Below, one piece after another: positions 41,475-48,795 of a DNA stretch of 64,000 nt. The DNA comes from Gammaproteobacteria bacterium. Lineage in GTDB: Bacteria > Pseudomonadota > Gammaproteobacteria > SZUA-229. The translations under genes and the position numbers were made by a program. Each line of letters begins with the position of its first letter. Position 1 is the first letter of the stretch. Below the pieces are notes generated by a model, which did no database searches, had not been told where the DNA came from, and was given only the letters and a program-made list of their open reading frames with translations. The stretch covers positions 1 through 64,000 of the forward strand of contig JADGFA010000004.1 of assembly GCA_016744065.1 (NCBI GenBank), written 5' to 3'.

Positions 41475-42140
41475 TCAAAAATGGTATGCAGTACCAAATG
41501 TAATTGAAACAGCATCAAATTCCAGTTCAAGATTAGTAAATGAAAAATCAACAAAATGATTTTCTATATTAAACTTTAGCTCAATATTTTCACTAAGCCC
41601 GTAACTAATACCTACACCTAGCAACATCGCCGAGGCATTATCAGACAGGAACTGCTCCTGGATAATATAATTAGCATCTGTGCTAAGTAATGCGGTATCT
41701 ACTTCTGTTTGGTTATAATTTATGTCCCATACAGCAAAACCTAAGCGGGCATTAAATGCCCAGTTACCCTGAACAGGCCACAATCCAACGAAGGCAGCAT
41801 AAATATAAGATGTTTCAACCGTTTCAATACCACCATTACCGGTATTTAATATACGTATATCACCTTCAAGCTCTTCATTTATAGCATAGCCCACTTCCAG
41901 CGCAATATCCGAACCTAACTTATATCCAGCAAATAAAGAATATGTCAGCCCCACTTCATCAGGAGCCTGATAATCCTTTGCTAATACACTTGTTGAGCCT
42001 GTGGGCGGATTACTGTCATTAAGTGAAAAATCACCATCTTCAGTCATTCCACCTGCATTAACACCAAAATAAAAATTGGTAGCTGAAGCTGGTGAGGTTA
42101 ATATTAAAAATAAAACAAAATACGGTAAGCGAAATTTCAT
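41475..42140 (-). CDS. Outer-membrane beta-barrel protein (OmpA/OmpW-like fold)
   Basis: A 221-residue protein with a signal peptide (about 1-20, cleavage after a Ser-Ala-type site before TNFYFG). The rest alternates short amphipathic strands and glycine-containing turns and ends in an aromatic residue (TAYHF), the usual barrel end signal. It resembles small 8-strand outer-membrane proteins. It is a single gene, divergent from the TlpA/DUF3570 cluster. Function unknown. Confidence 0.8.
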   Translation of the reverse strand: MKFRLPYFVLFLILTSPASATNFYFGVNAGGMTEDGDFSLNDSNPPTGSTSVLAKDYQAPDEVGLTYSLFAGYKLGSDIALEVGYAINEELEGDIRILNTGNGGIETVETSYIYAAFVGLWPVQGNWAFNARLGFAVWDINYNQTEVDTALLSTDANYIIQEQFLSDNASAMLLGVGISYGLSENIELKFNIENHFVDFSFTNLELEFDAVSITFGTAYHF

Positions 42141-42406
42141 AATTAAAACAAATCCTGTACTAAAATAATCTTAAAAAATAGATTATGTATGAATAAATAT
42201 TACACGATGAATGTATTTTTATAAATATATTCAATAGATATGAGAGGATTATCACATTTCTAGAGAATTTTGTTTGAATTCAATTAAATTGCGACATTTA
42301 ATAAAAACTTAAGGAAAATTCATCTAAAATAAGATCATTGCTTTATTGCAATATCAATTATTATGAGTTCCTTATATAGTATAGTGTTTCATTTGGAGAA
42401 GTATGC

Positions 42407-42895
42407 GTGTTTAGTTTGACCAAGCAAGTTAAGTTTATTACATTATTGATCGTTTTATTTTCATCTCAGTCTTTTGCACAAAAAGCACCTGATTTCACAT
42501 TAGAGGGTGATAAAGGTAAAATTAAGTTATCCGCCTATAAAAATAAAGTTGTTTATATCGATTTCTGGGCATCATGGTGTAAACCATGTCGGAAATCATT
42601 TACGTTTATGAACGACATGCAAGAGCGTTATGGCAAAAAAGGCTTTAAAATCATTGCTATTAACCTGGATAGTGAACGATCTGCAGCCAGCTCTTTTCTG
42701 AAAAAACATCCAGCTAAATTCGCCATTGCCTATGATTCAAAGGGTAAAACCCCCGACCTTTATAAATTAAAAGTGATGCCTACATCTTACCTGATTGATC
42801 GCAGAGGTAACCTGGTAAATATACATAAAGGGTTTAAAGAGCCCCAGGCGGCTAAACTCGAAAAGTTAATTGTTCAAACATTGAACAAAAAGTAA
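42407..42895 (+). CDS. TlpA/ResA-like periplasmic thioredoxin
   Basis: A 162-residue exported thioredoxin-fold protein. A signal sequence covers residues 1-24 (ending SQSFA). The redox motif is WCKPC with Cys58 and Cys61, and the cis-Pro motif is MPTSYLID. The start is GTG with GGAG ten bases upstream; an ATG nearby is followed by a stop after three codons. It is the first gene of the cluster with the DUF4266 and DUF3570 genes and might reduce the cysteines of the small lipoprotein. That partnership is inference. Confidence 0.88.
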   Translation: MFSLTKQVKFITLLIVLFSSQSFAQKAPDFTLEGDKGKIKLSAYKNKVVYIDFWASWCKPCRKSFTFMNDMQERYGKKGFKIIAINLDSERSAASSFLKKHPAKFAIAYDSKGKTPDLYKLKVMPTSYLIDRRGNLVNIHKGFKEPQAAKLEKLIVQTLNKK

Positions 42896-42911
42896 CCCTT
42901 AAGAAAACACT

Positions 42912-43169
42912 ATGATGAAATTATTATTTAGATTATCAATGAGTATAGGGCTTAGCCTTTCACTTGGTGCCTGTTCCTTTTACAATGCTACAGGCGAAGC
43001 CTTTTCCATGGAAAACGTAGAACCATGGCAACGCGATGTACTTGCACAGGATGATATGCAGCTTGACCCAGATGCCATGCGCACCTTTGCAGATGAGCAC
43101 ATATACTTCAGTAAAGAAGCATCAACCGGTGGTCGCGGTGTTGGCGGCGGTGGATGTGGTTGTAATTAA
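42912..43169 (+). CDS. Small DUF4266-type lipoprotein with C-terminal GlyCys motif
   Basis: An 85-residue lipoprotein. Its lipobox is LGAC with lipidated Cys21. The middle carries VEPWQRDVLA and HIYFSKEA, and the end is GGRGVGGGGCGCN with Cys82 and Cys84. I recognise these as features of the DUF4266 family, whose function is unknown to me. The C-terminal Gly/Cys tail looks like a metal-binding or modified site. The gene lies 17 bases after the thioredoxin gene and 3 bases before the DUF3570 gene. Confidence 0.85.
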   Translation: MMKLLFRLSMSIGLSLSLGACSFYNATGEAFSMENVEPWQRDVLAQDDMQLDPDAMRTFADEHIYFSKEASTGGRGVGGGGCGCN

Positions 43170-43171
43170 TT

Positions 43172-44425
43172 ATGAATAATATAAAAAGTAAATTATCAAT
43201 TGCCTCCTGCACATTATTAGGTGGCACAGCACAACAGGCTACGGCAATTGAAAACTCATGGGATCTTGATTCATCTTTTCTCTACTACAGTGAGGCTGAT
43301 GACAGGGTTGAGATTAAAAAAGCAATGGCATTTTTGACCGGTGATATTTCTGCCGAAGATACAGTTAATGTAAACCTTGTTTTAGATACTATGTCCGGTG
43401 CGACGCCTACTGGAGCAGTTCGAAGCAAAAACTCCAGTGTATCGTTTTCAAGTGCATCGGGTGCGGGCTCATCAACAGTAGATGGTGGCTCCGTCGACAG
43501 AGTAAACTTCAGTGATACACGTTTAGGTATCGCTCTAAGCTGGGCACACAGCCAGGATAGATTAACGACTCTGACCTATGGTGGCAGCTTGTCCGTTGAA
43601 AAAGATTATCAGTCATATGGTGCCAGCATCAATTACAGCCTGGACACTGAAGACAGGTTGAGCACATATACATTCGGTTTTGCTGGTTCTTTTGACGAAA
43701 TATACAGGAAAACAGATGGCACGCCAGAGCCTCTTTCCAAAGTAGATGATAATAATATCTTTTCTAATGGTGAACGATATGCCTACGATTTTATAGTCGG
43801 TGTAACAAAAGTATTAAATAGAAAAACAGTTGGTCAGTTAAATTACACCCTGTCATATTCCGATGGATACCACACCGACCCCTACAAAGTAATTTCTGAA
43901 GTTAACCTGGTTGAAGATACAGGTACCGGTGAATTTGCATGGGCAGAGTTAAATCGTTACTACGAAGCCCGCCCTGACAATCGGTTACGCCATGCTATAT
44001 TTACCTCTATGGCGCACCAGTATGGTGAATCAGGTGAAACAGTGCATGCTTCATATCGCTTTTACACTGATGACTGGGGCGTTTCGTCTAATACCCTTGA
44101 TTTAACTCATCGTACTCCTCTGTCCTCGACTAGCTACATTGAACCTCATTTCCGCTATTATCTTGCATCTGCTGCTGATTTTTTTGTACATAGCTTCAAT
44201 AATACTGATGTCTCAACTCCCATTACCTTACCAGAATATGCAAGTGCAGATTATCGCCTTGATGACAGTGTAGGTGTGACGGCTGGTATAGAGTATGGAA
44301 CAAAATTATCTGGAGGTGATTTCAGGGCTCGTATAGAATATATAAACTGGCAGTATGAAGAGGCTGAATATGATGAAACCAAAGCGCTTGTATTGCAATT
44401 TAGCTATCAAAAATTATTTGACTAA
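43172..44425 (+). CDS. DUF3570 protein with SGAT (flavinylation-like) motif
   Basis: A 417-residue exported protein, mostly short beta strands, ending in an aromatic-containing strand (FSYQKLFD), consistent with an outer-membrane barrel. The N-terminus (1-25) is a probable signal. Residues 72-80 read DTMSGATPT. This fits the S/T-G-A-S/T-x-T consensus that ApbE enzymes use to attach FMN to a Thr, as in NqrC and RnfG. The candidate residue is Thr78. I place it in DUF3570 by the overall pattern and its DUF4266 neighbour. apbE lies just downstream beyond a hairpin. Confidence 0.82.
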   Translation: MNNIKSKLSIASCTLLGGTAQQATAIENSWDLDSSFLYYSEADDRVEIKKAMAFLTGDISAEDTVNVNLVLDTMSGATPTGAVRSKNSSVSFSSASGAGSSTVDGGSVDRVNFSDTRLGIALSWAHSQDRLTTLTYGGSLSVEKDYQSYGASINYSLDTEDRLSTYTFGFAGSFDEIYRKTDGTPEPLSKVDDNNIFSNGERYAYDFIVGVTKVLNRKTVGQLNYTLSYSDGYHTDPYKVISEVNLVEDTGTGEFAWAELNRYYEARPDNRLRHAIFTSMAHQYGESGETVHASYRFYTDDWGVSSNTLDLTHRTPLSSTSYIEPHFRYYLASAADFFVHSFNNTDVSTPITLPEYASADYRLDDSVGVTAGIEYGTKLSGGDFRARIEYINWQYEEAEYDETKALVLQFSYQKLFD

Positions 44426-44452
44426 ATAATTATTAACAAACATATTATTTAA

Positions 44453-44484
44453 TAAAAAAGCTGAACAGATGTTCAGCTTTTTTA
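44453..44484 (+). terminator. Hairpin with T-run between the DUF3570 and apbE genes
   Basis: AAAAAAGCTGAAC pairs with GTTCAGCTTTTTT around a 4-base loop, a near-perfect terminator that can work on both strands. It ends about 24 bases before the apbE ATG, leaving little room for a new promoter. Confidence 0.8.
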
Positions 44485-44507
44485 TTTCTCATATATAACC
44501 AAAACCT

Positions 44508-45398
44508 ATGACAGACATCACAACTGAAATAAATAAAAATTACAGTATTGGTCGCTTCACAGCTATGGCATGCCCCTGTGAAATATTACTCGACTCACAG
44601 AATAAACATCTAATTAAATCAATCACACGCCTTGCATATAAGGAAGCAAAGCGTATAGAAAAAAAATTTAGCCGTTACACAAATAATAATATTATTTATA
44701 AAATTAACAACGCTAATGGCATTGCCATAAAAACAGACACTGAAACAGCTTTAATGTTTGATTTCGCCAATCAATGCTACCAATTAAGTGACGGTAAATT
44801 TGATATTACATCTGGCGTATTAAGAAAAATATGGAAATTTGATAGCAGTGATAATATCCCAACTAAAGACGAAGTTAATTTAATAAAACCCAATATTGGC
44901 TGGGATAAAGTTAAGTGGGAAAACCCAGTTATCACTCTTCCTCAAAATATGGAAGTTGACCTTGGGGGTATAGGGAAGGAATATGCGGTTGACTCAACTG
45001 TTAAAATTCTAAAAAAACATACAGATAAAAGCTTTCTGGTTAACTTTGGCGGTGATATCGCCTGCCCCAAGCCTAAAGATGATAGTACCCCCTGGTATAT
45101 AGGAGTAGACGACCCAAACAAAACAGGTGAAAAATCAGTTGGACAGATAGCATTATACCAGGGTGGGCTGGCAACCAGTGGAGATGCCCGGCGCTACCTG
45201 CTCAAAGATGGAAAACGTTATAGCCATATACTGGATCCACATACAGGTTACCCTGTCCCCGATGCACCACGATCTATAAGCGTTATAGGAAACACCTGTA
45301 TTGAAGCAGGTATGCTATCTACTTTTGCTATGTTACAGGGGAAAAATGCAGTAGAATTTTTAGATGCTCAGGATGTTAAGTACTGGTGTGTACCTTGA
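44508..45398 (+). CDS. apbE: FAD:protein FMN transferase, apparently without signal peptide
   Basis: A 296-residue ApbE. Motifs: FSRYTNNN near residue 54, SDGKFDITSG, DLGGIGKEYAVD, NFGGDI, SGDARRY and HILDPHTGYP. It transfers FMN from FAD to a Thr in a target protein. Most ApbE proteins are periplasmic lipoproteins, but the N-terminus here (MTDITTEINKNYS) is hydrophilic with no lipobox, so it may act in the cytoplasm. It follows the DUF3570 gene with a terminator-like hairpin between them. Start has only a weak ribosome-binding site. Confidence 0.93.
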   Translation: MTDITTEINKNYSIGRFTAMACPCEILLDSQNKHLIKSITRLAYKEAKRIEKKFSRYTNNNIIYKINNANGIAIKTDTETALMFDFANQCYQLSDGKFDITSGVLRKIWKFDSSDNIPTKDEVNLIKPNIGWDKVKWENPVITLPQNMEVDLGGIGKEYAVDSTVKILKKHTDKSFLVNFGGDIACPKPKDDSTPWYIGVDDPNKTGEKSVGQIALYQGGLATSGDARRYLLKDGKRYSHILDPHTGYPVPDAPRSISVIGNTCIEAGMLSTFAMLQGKNAVEFLDAQDVKYWCVP

Positions 45399-45431
45399 TT
45401 TATTATTAATAACTCATTTATTAATTTTCAT

Positions 45432-45473
45432 AGACAATAAAAAACCTGCTAGTAAGCAGGTTTTTTATTGTCT
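45432..45473. terminator. Perfect 19-bp palindromic bidirectional terminator
   Basis: The 19-base arms are fully complementary around a 4-base AGTA loop, with an A-run on one side and a T-run on the other. It sits between the convergent apbE and DUF1501 genes and should end transcription from both sides. Confidence 0.92.
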
Positions 45474-45503
45474 ACTACGTTACAGACATTACAGCTTTAA
45501 AAT

Positions 45504-47033
45504 TTAAAACAATGTTGGTTCACCAGCAACTGTTTCATCAATTTTAGAATCACCTGAAGGATTCATACCAACATCTGCAGTTAAAACCTCTGGGTTTTGC
45601 ACACCAAAATATGAATACACAGTTGAACCAATTGACATGGGTTCCACCTCATAACTATCAGATGTTGGCCTTGTAAACTGCCTGTTCTGTTTCGCATCGC
45701 CAAAACGCTCAGTTTTACCAACGACCTTACCTAAGGCTCCTGCGGGCCGAATACCAGCACCGCCAATAGTAAATAAGTTCTGATTGTTACCGTGATCCCA
45801 ACCCATAGAACCATTTAAATTAACATTTCGACCAAAATCACCATGTACATTAATTACAATATTATCTGTAGCTAATGGACTTCCATTTATATCATTACGC
45901 GTACCTAAACGAATATGTTTCGCTGCCACCCTTAATACGGTCATCAACTGGGTCATACGATCTTCATATTTCTCTATTGAATTATCATGATCATCCCAAC
46001 CACCCAAACCACCACCAACTGTAATGTACATAGTATCAGGGTTTTGCATTGCAAGCGTTACAGCAGCCTTAACTCGACTTGTATACCTGTTATTATCTGG
46101 ATAAACCAATCTACCAGACGTTGCATCCCGGTCAGGATCATTTACATCTGCAATTAATGGAAGTAAGGTCGGGTCATCGTTATTCGTTTTAAGCCCGGCA
46201 ATTCTTGTCTGAAGATTTTTACGATTAGTAAAACCATCTGCAACTTTCTGAAAACGACTATTAGTAGCAGGTGAAATTTTATCGACAAGCGCCTCAATAA
46301 CAGCCTCATTACCAATACCTGAATTTCTGGCATATGGATTATCAAAACCCGTATCTAAACTGATACCTCTCATCTGCAAAGGCAAGTTGACACTGCCTGT
46401 CGAACTATCGACAGCAAAACCTGAACTCTCACCCTCAAATGAAACAAAAGGAAGAATCATCTCTTCTAACTGTCTACCATTTAATAATGCGCTCCCATCT
46501 AACTGCGCTTTATTCGCAAATAAAACAGACGCCAGAGTCGTACCTACTCCACCGCTCAGCTCTATATCAAGGTTACTTTTCTGACTGGATAAAATACTAT
46601 TTCTATGGGCACGAGTATTAGCCTTACGCCTGTTAATCGTTCTATAAACAGATAAATCATCCGATGCCAGCATATCTTCCATTGCCAGGCCACCCGCATC
46701 TTTCCAGAAACCATTAGGCGTAATTTGACCATCAGCACCCGGGTCATTAACATCCATTTGAGTAAGAATATCATTTCTCACTGCCGTATATGGGTTTTGA
46801 GAGTTAGCATCTATGTCTGTTATATTTGTCAGGTTAGCCGATAACTCTGAAGGCCCTCCATAAAGAAAAACATTAATTACCTGGGGTAAAACTGTTGGCA
46901 CAATAAGATTTGCATCCTGCACTACACCAGCAGCACTGACTTTCTTAATAAAAGAGCCATTGTTAAAAACAGAGGGAGCAGCTAGTGTCGCACCAAGTGC
47001 ACCCATGGATTTGATAAATTTTCTACGTTTCAT
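45504..47033 (-). CDS. DUF1501 family protein, Tat-exported
   Basis: A 509-residue protein from the ATG at 47033, with GGAGAG upstream; a GTG five codons earlier is less likely. The N-terminus MKRRKFIKSMGALGATLA is a twin-arginine signal. The core carries VINVFLYGGPS, GGGLGGWDDHDN, VINVHGDFGRN and DHGNNQNLF, the alkaline-phosphatase-superfamily features of DUF1501. Members are usually encoded with a DUF1800-type protein; here the partner is the upstream lipoprotein gene. The substrate is unknown. Confidence 0.85.
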   Translation of the reverse strand: MKRRKFIKSMGALGATLAAPSVFNNGSFIKKVSAAGVVQDANLIVPTVLPQVINVFLYGGPSELSANLTNITDIDANSQNPYTAVRNDILTQMDVNDPGADGQITPNGFWKDAGGLAMEDMLASDDLSVYRTINRRKANTRAHRNSILSSQKSNLDIELSGGVGTTLASVLFANKAQLDGSALLNGRQLEEMILPFVSFEGESSGFAVDSSTGSVNLPLQMRGISLDTGFDNPYARNSGIGNEAVIEALVDKISPATNSRFQKVADGFTNRKNLQTRIAGLKTNNDDPTLLPLIADVNDPDRDATSGRLVYPDNNRYTSRVKAAVTLAMQNPDTMYITVGGGLGGWDDHDNSIEKYEDRMTQLMTVLRVAAKHIRLGTRNDINGSPLATDNIVINVHGDFGRNVNLNGSMGWDHGNNQNLFTIGGAGIRPAGALGKVVGKTERFGDAKQNRQFTRPTSDSYEVEPMSIGSTVYSYFGVQNPEVLTADVGMNPSGDSKIDETVAGEPTLF

Positions 47034-47049
47034 GGTTGAACTCTCCACT

Positions 47050-48795
47050 CTAATTAGCTTTCAGGAAATAATAAAATTCGGGTAATCTTGTCATATAATC
47101 AAATGCGACCTGAGCCATTTCATCATGACGACCCTCTCTAATTTCAAGCGTTTCATCATCGCCTTCAATTAAATAATCACCTGAATTATTGCCATTATTT
47201 GTCAGGTCAAAATAATATGCTTTAAGATCTTCTTTTTCTATAGTAGACGCACGCCTTTGCAATCCTGTTAAGAAAACAAAATCAATAAAATCATCAAGAC
47301 TTAAATCAGTAACACGTTCAGCTCTATCAGCCAGCTTTGACATACGATCAATCTCATATTGACGTATAATAATAGCCTGGTCAGTAGCATCATCATCCAG
47401 TGGACCAGTCAGATCCTCGTCGCTTTCATTTAGTCCCATTCCCGTAGACCAACGACACCTGGCATTATTATTACTATCTTCATCAGAACAACTACTGCCC
47501 CCTGAACTACCTAAAATTAATTGTTCGCGTACCGCTTTATGGTAATTCGCAAAACTTAATGAATCTAATGGCACACCGGTAAATCGACCTAATTTTAATG
47601 ACATTACAGGCCAGCCCATTTGCTTCAAACTTAAATCATCATTATCACTGGTCATATCTTCCAGTACATCACGATAAGGCCTCCAGTCCATTTGGTGGGC
47701 AAGTGAATAAAATGTTTCTTCAACTGATTTTGGACGCTCATTATTCAATAAGTATTCTTTACTAAATAAAATACTTACAAAAATATCCTGGAAGGTAGTA
47801 GGAGAATCAGACAAGATAGCTTGAACAATCTCTGCTCGCTCTTCCCCTGTTTTCCTAAAGAAAAAATACTCAACAATTGAAGTTGTAATCCTTGGCATAA
47901 CCAGAGGATGATTAGCGACCACATCATAAAAATCACCACAGGTCGTTACAAATGTATCTAATACATATTGAGGTTCCGTATTTGCAAAGCCATTTGAGAT
48001 TAATTCATAATCTGCATCCTGATCTGTAAGATAAAGATTTTTACAGGCAATAGCTGCTCTTGGCACGTCATCATCACGATCAAATAATCCGAGATAAATT
48101 TCTATCATTTCTCGGGTATTATCCTCTGGAGAACGGAAGCGCCTCCAGTTTTCCTGGCTACGCTGATGTCGAGAAATTATCTGACTTACTGTTTTATTCG
48201 CACGTAAATCTTCCCTTAACTTGTCAAATACTTTCTGTACATCACGAATGGAAGCACTATCTATCTCTTCTGCTGGAGAAAACAGTATGGTATTAGCCAG
48301 TACATAAGCTATCCAGTTATCCAGTGTATCCTTACTAAGAGGGTATTGGTATATTCGACTAAGTGGTAAATGCTTAGGCCAGTCACCTTCAGCATCATTA
48401 AAATTTATACTAAATAAAGAGTTATTATTATCATCATCAGGGTCTGTAATAATCAAGTCATTTTCATTAACAACCTGCTGGATCAGATCCCCTGCTAAGG
48501 CGCTTTTTGTATCTGATAATAAATTAGTCCCTGATTTAAGAGCTAGGCTGCCGCCCATACCGTTTGATATATCAAAAAACTCATCAACAGGTATACCTTT
48601 AAACATTGTGCCGTATAACTTATTCGCTACCTGATATTTTTGCTCATTACTCAATGCATCATATTCAGATTTAGTTAACTCACCTGTATAGTTTTTTACG
48701 GCATTACTAGAATTACCTGATGGTGTACTTGGGGAGCACCCCGAAAATGAAAGCGTTGCCAGCAATGTAAACGCCAAAGGCTTAAAATTACGCAT
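47050..48795 (-). CDS. Large lipoprotein of unknown function, partner of DUF1501
   Basis: A 581-residue lipoprotein with lipobox FSGC and lipidated Cys20, followed by a Ser/Asn/Pro-rich linker. The rest is helical and acidic. In the middle is a Cys-rich acidic insert (SSCSDEDSNNNARCRW near 438-453). I do not see the clear markers of DUF1800, though the position upstream of a DUF1501 gene suggests the same job. It is co-transcribed with the DUF1501 gene. Function unknown; it probably acts at the periplasmic face of a membrane. Confidence 0.7.
   Translation of the reverse strand: MRNFKPLAFTLLATLSFSGCSPSTPSGNSSNAVKNYTGELTKSEYDALSNEQKYQVANKLYGTMFKGIPVDEFFDISNGMGGSLALKSGTNLLSDTKSALAGDLIQQVVNENDLIITDPDDDNNNSLFSINFNDAEGDWPKHLPLSRIYQYPLSKDTLDNWIAYVLANTILFSPAEEIDSASIRDVQKVFDKLREDLRANKTVSQIISRHQRSQENWRRFRSPEDNTREMIEIYLGLFDRDDDVPRAAIACKNLYLTDQDADYELISNGFANTEPQYVLDTFVTTCGDFYDVVANHPLVMPRITTSIVEYFFFRKTGEERAEIVQAILSDSPTTFQDIFVSILFSKEYLLNNERPKSVEETFYSLAHQMDWRPYRDVLEDMTSDNDDLSLKQMGWPVMSLKLGRFTGVPLDSLSFANYHKAVREQLILGSSGGSSCSDEDSNNNARCRWSTGMGLNESDEDLTGPLDDDATDQAIIIRQYEIDRMSKLADRAERVTDLSLDDFIDFVFLTGLQRRASTIEKEDLKAYYFDLTNNGNNSGDYLIEGDDETLEIREGRHDEMAQVAFDYMTRLPEFYYFLKAN

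Follow-up and report, generated by a model that had tools for sequence, protein, structure and literature searches.

A cluster of four genes, all on the + strand, in the window (i.e., the 64,000-nucleotide stretch of gammaproteobacterial DNA analysed here) encodes a DUF3570 protein which, in the reading we favour with moderate confidence, is an outer-membrane β-barrel that carries FMN on Thr78 at its outer mouth, works in a thioredoxin/flavin relay, and is modified in the cytosol by an ApbE without a signal peptide. The first gene (42407–42895, +) has a GTG start and encodes a TlpA/ResA-like periplasmic thioredoxin with a signal peptide, a WCKPC motif, and a Redoxin match (1e-24); it scored 110 bits against the ResA subfamily model, below the cut-off of that model, and is the likely electron donor. 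The second gene (42912–43169, +; PF14086, 2.5e-21) encodes a DUF4266 lipoprotein with the lipobox LGAC, in which Cys21 and a Ser at +2 represent the outer-membrane type. Its C-terminal tail, GGGGCGCN, contains Cys82-Gly83-Cys84 (codons 43155–43163, +), a CXC presumed to be a redox pair, and is near-invariant, with GGCGCN as the last six residues in 114 of 127 DUF4266 proteins. The third gene (43172–44425, +) encodes the DUF3570 protein itself (417 aa), which has a Sec-type signal peptide and matches PF12094 with an E-value of 6.4e-85 and 285.9 bits, exceeding the gathering score of 25. The fourth gene is apbE (44508–45398, +), encoding a 296-aa FAD:protein FMN transferase (PF02424, 3.7e-66; 223.8 bits, above the gathering score); as the preliminary description had it, this gene lies directly downstream of the DUF3570 gene on the same strand, at a distance of 82 bp. 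A scan of 42100–45600 for promoters and terminators gave results near shuffle expectation. Convergent with apbE, positions 45504–48795 (− strand) encode a DUF1501 protein and, as its partner, a lipoprotein-like product of 581 aa that matches no Pfam family.

Codons 43385–43411 (+) confirm that residues 72–80 of the DUF3570 protein read DTMSGATPT; the motif does lie in the span of 43380–43412 given previously, which is a few bases too wide. The predicted FMN acceptor, Thr78 (codon acg, 43403–43405), is the fourth residue of the SGAT at 75–78. We collected DUF3570 loci with their flanks from 96 genomes belonging to the family and class of the window as well as from named genomes of other phyla, and computed motif statistics on 143 distinct DUF3570 proteins, with columns numbered as in the window protein. 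Columns 75–78 read [ST][GSA][AS][ST] in 135 of the 143 homologues, and 139 have Ser or Thr at column 78; 73 proteins fit [ST]G[AS][ST], while 62 carry a variant with Ser or Ala replacing Gly. This variant is typically found in Bacteroidota (TSAS/SSAS) and in a second class of proteobacterial DUF3570 proteins. Among the 60 window ORFs of at least 100 aa, the DUF3570 motif is the sole occurrence of [ST]GA[ST], and 126 of the 127 occurrences in the homologues fall within residues 60–200. Absence of the motif from apbE-linked DUF3570 proteins had been named beforehand as a possible refutation, and the motif was found in 86 of 89 such proteins. The expectation that it would be conserved mainly where apbE is linked was not borne out, as 22 of 25 unlinked proteins (counted only where the context available was 4 kb or more) also keep it; linkage is therefore no predictor of the motif, ApbE may act on DUF3570 in trans, and we rejected the idea of a motif confined to apbE-linked loci. 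At Bacteroidota loci such as L049, L070, and L102, apbE is tightly linked although the acceptor motif, TSAS or SSAS, has no Gly, a residue considered to mark the sites of ApbE; depending on the genus, the enzyme is secreted or has no signal peptide. Seven loci (L148, L149, L150, L151, L152, L154, and L155) encode a divergent DUF3570 class whose motif is of the SSAS type (SISSASIDV); the single linked ApbE seen there (L149) is secreted and Asp-bearing.

Flavinylation of DUF3570 by ApbE has been demonstrated on a homologue, so that the central inference of the preliminary description, i.e., that ApbE attaches FMN to Thr78, is right, by analogy, yet already published. Meheust et al. 2021, eLife, described two conserved [S/T]GA[S/T] motifs in DUF3570; the Chlorobium luteolum protein, coexpressed with its own ApbE, showed flavin by in-gel UV fluorescence, and flavinylation was lost only after the serines of both sites had been replaced (PMC8238504). 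That study also described the cluster of DUF3570, thioredoxin-like protein, DUF4266 (CXC), and apbE, a DsbD being linked in some genomes and absent from 316 clusters, and proposed a thioredoxin-flavin hybrid system with CXC redox cycling (PMC8238504), in agreement with the earlier suggestion that DUF3570 is a redox carrier partnered by the thioredoxin and the Cys-tailed lipoprotein. The preliminary description knew of no function for DUF3570, whose role as an ApbE substrate had been published in 2021 (PMC8238504); in the literature searched, we found no other paper naming DUF3570 or DUF4266. The window cluster resembles that of C. luteolum (ABB24424/ABB24423) in the N-terminal-side [S/T]GA[S/T], the apbE, the thioredoxin-like protein, and the DUF4266 CXC tail, all in one cluster. 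It differs from the subset of DUF3570 clusters that contain DsbD in lacking that gene and from the C. luteolum system in its degenerate second site; a further possible difference is its ApbE without signal peptide and triad Asp. Both the degenerate site and these features of ApbE were missed by the preliminary description.

The second site of the window protein reads S96-G97-A98-G99 (43457–43468, +), with Gly at the acceptor position, and hence departs from the [S/T]GA[S/T] pattern of the DUF3570 system; a single FMN is predicted from this sequence. Column 99 is Ser in 73, Thr in 11, and Gly in 28 of the 143 homologues, and the paralogues of the window protein read TPSG-N or similar at this site. 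The neighbouring S93-S94-A95-S96 resembles the Bacteroidota variant, so the second site may retain partial function. Since 121 of 135 DUF3570 proteins have no Cys after the N-terminal 40 residues, thiol chemistry must usually come from their partners.

An AlphaFold2 model of the window DUF3570 protein, built on 96 homologues, has 18 strands (pLDDT 88.4, pTM 0.85). In prediction, the protein combines the features of outer-membrane β-barrels (i.e., a signal peptide, a C-terminal aromatic residue, and a closed antiparallel barrel whose turns are short on one of its sides), and Foldseek matched the model to the FadL, OprD/Occ, OmpG, and BcsC barrels with E-values down to 3e-8; both results agree with the previous view that the protein is probably an outer-membrane one. 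These proteins share the transmembrane β-barrel architecture with DUF3570 but only about 10% identity and TM-scores of 0.3–0.5, and no solved homologue was found by sequence search; we know of no covalent flavin on FadL, OprD/Occ, OmpG, or BcsC. Barrel closure is predicted, and orientation assumed by the porin rule, rather than read from coordinates. All turns after even strands have 2–5 residues, and the long connections (80–109, 178–199, and 333–365) all follow odd strands; in porins, both termini are in the periplasm, a rule that places the long loops of DUF3570 outside the cell. C-terminal aromatic residues, a feature of the β-signals of outer-membrane proteins, are present in 110 of 143 DUF3570 proteins. 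In the model, Thr78 lies at one end of strand 3, the outer end by the porin rule, with the second site in the next loop; the TSAS of a distant Chryseobacterium member (L049), modelled separately, maps to this same end of strand 3. Conservation is one-sided: among the most conserved tenth of positions, 33 of 39 fall in the outer third of strands or in long loops, and none in the inner third or the short turns (116 residues). This conserved outer set includes Y39, D115, R117, E143, D145, D175, E265, R271, R296, D300, W302, R328, and D360, and the motif residues D72 and A77 also belong to the most conserved tenth, so the active site, flavin included, looks to be at the outer mouth of the modelled barrel. 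Because Thr78 is at the outer end, where conserved residues cluster, the flavin probably faces outward. In six Methylococcaceae loci (L047, L048, L051, L054, L055, and L066), giant DUF3570 proteins of about 890 to 1970 aa are enlarged by long insertions behind the first motif and end in a C-terminal extension, rich in Met and His, without a Pfam match.

The window ApbE has no hydrophobic N-terminus, signal peptide, or lipobox; the longest possible ORF starts MTDITTEINKNYSIGRF and its first residues are MTDITTEINKNYSIGRFTAMACPCEILL. A signal peptide missed through a wrong start was rejected for this protein and its close kin, for which the longest possible ORF was used. A review from 2025 describes an Asp-Ser-His triad in ApbE (e.g., Asp285 in V. 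cholerae; PMC12052999). The window ApbE retains the triad Ser224 and His240, while Gly268 (codon 45309–45311, +) occupies the position of the catalytic Asp in alignments to solved ApbEs, including Listeria FmnB (Asp301). Among 105 sampled ApbEs, with signal peptides called by hydrophobicity rather than by SignalP or another dedicated predictor, 55 combine Gly with no signal peptide, 25 have both Asp and a signal peptide, 21 (mostly Bacteroidota) have Asp but no signal peptide, and the remainder are uncertain; no clear case in this sample pairs a signal peptide with Gly. The ApbE tree shows a single switch from Asp to Gly and three gains or losses of the signal peptide, and the Gly group holds nearly all sampled proteobacterial ApbEs linked to DUF3570 of the window's class. 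Flavinylation itself being known, a signal-less, Asp-less ApbE next to an exported barrel looks like the new part; as it lacks the triad Asp, this ApbE counts as a putative transferase. Klebsiella pneumoniae likewise has a signal-less ApbE plus a second, secreted one in the same genome, and its cytosolic ApbE flavinylates a soluble fumarate reductase (PMC12052999); however, that substrate stays in the cytosol, whereas the linked substrate in the window has a signal peptide and is predicted to be an outer-membrane barrel.

Of the same 96 genomes from the family and class, 41 have both signal-less ApbE and DUF3570, 10 have only DUF3570, five have only signal-less ApbE, and 40 lack both (Fisher p = 3e-12, in a test that ignores phylogeny and shared ancestry); the association is also seen within the family (p = 8e-4) and outside it (p = 3e-5), both tests again ignoring phylogeny. 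Signal-less apbE is operon-linked to DUF3570 in Gammaproteobacteria, Methylococcales, Campylobacterota, and Acidobacteriota. Two congeners (G002 and G004) have the thioredoxin and signal-less apbE genes adjacent, with no DUF4266-DUF3570 between them (L198:5121–6665 and L205:4237–5799), and DUF3570 elsewhere in the genome, an arrangement that fits action in trans. In genus g11 (L192, L193, L204, and L206), signal-less apbE lies near aprAB and sat, away from DUF3570.

Three other explanations were weighed against the favoured reading. One of them takes the SGAT motif to be incidental and DUF3570 to be an ordinary porin, as four-residue motifs are generally common by chance; the motif's position-specific conservation and the confinement of nearly all occurrences to one stretch led us to reject a chance motif, and the direct flavinylation of the C. 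luteolum homologue contradicts this explanation for the family (PMC8238504), leaving it very improbable. A flavin facing the periplasm, with the barrel inverted or the loop reaching down the lumen, would make DUF3570 a periplasmic-side redox enzyme and would suit its presumed partners, the thioredoxin and DUF4266, which are periplasmic; moreover, loop 80–109 has a pLDDT of only 55–69, so its position is undefined and it might plug the lumen. Such an arrangement is unlikely, in our view, as the asymmetry of loop length and the C-terminal aromatic residue fit a normal porin orientation, and the same loop accommodates inserts of hundreds of residues after the first motif in Methylococcaceae.

The main rival, although we doubt it, concerns the enzyme: DUF3570 would be flavinylated in the periplasm by the only other ApbE of the same genome (contig C86), and the signal-less ApbE would have another role or be degenerate. 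The C86 enzyme carries a lipoprotein signal together with the Asp motif (LADAAAT), both lacking in the signal-less clade with its Gly, and known ApbE substrates are as a rule modified by secreted ApbEs (PMC12052999). In six genomes with DUF3570 (G007, G014, G036, G043, G045, and G046, of which the first two are near-complete), the only ApbE found is of the other, longer type, so the periplasmic type might suffice. Nevertheless, the signal-less ApbE keeps Ser224 and His240, co-occurs with DUF3570, and is operon-linked to it across four groups, and the C86 enzyme has Rnf-type substrates of its own. Furthermore, in three genomes with a motif-bearing DUF3570 (G059, 96% complete; G024, 92%; and G091, 81%), a Pfam-level search found no ApbE other than the signal-less protein, which must modify DUF3570 there if DUF3570 is flavinylated in these genomes.

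Under the favoured reading of an outward-facing flavin and a cytosolic transferase, DsbD, encoded elsewhere (own genome, a single copy on contig C81, unlinked to the window cluster), would reduce the periplasmic thioredoxin, which in turn would reduce the CXC tail of the outer-membrane lipoprotein DUF4266; this flexible, Gly-rich tail would hand electrons to the FMN on Thr78, and the FMN would reduce an acceptor at the cell surface, with Fe(III) or sulfur species as candidates. The signal-less ApbE would modify unfolded DUF3570 in the cytosol, ahead of Sec export. Sec carries unfolded chains, which makes cytosolic modification physically plausible. Its plausibility is also suggested by the flavinylated DUF3570 obtained in E. 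coli from truncated proteins, mostly in the insoluble pellet (PMC8238504). That most proteobacteria flavinylate DUF3570 in the cytosol through this signal-less, Asp-less ApbE clade, with the surface FMN serving a cytochrome-free, thiol-fed relay, is a wider proposal that we offer only tentatively, as a possibility short of a probability. If true, it would spare the cell the export of FAD and would break two assumptions, i.e., that flavinylation of exported proteins takes place outside the cytosol and is the work of a secreted ApbE, and that ApbE requires the Asp; it also predicts an outer-face flavin that receives its electrons from thiols and not from haems, which would bear on iron and sulfur metabolism in the many bacteria with this cluster. 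Surveys that accept ApbE only with a signal peptide would miss the signal-less clade.

The genome from which the window derives encodes dsrAB, sat, Rnf, and three DUF3570 genes, and a role of DUF3570 in surface sulfur or iron redox is possible. A second thioredoxin-DUF4266-DUF3570 cluster, without apbE, is located on contig C35 (L116:4140–7770), where it adjoins an ATP sulfurylase gene (sat) and a divergent two-component system. The arrangement recurs in relatives: clusters of this type next to sat were also found in five other loci (L212, L214, L215, L217, and L218), and most of these loci have a divergent two-component system of the OmpR type.
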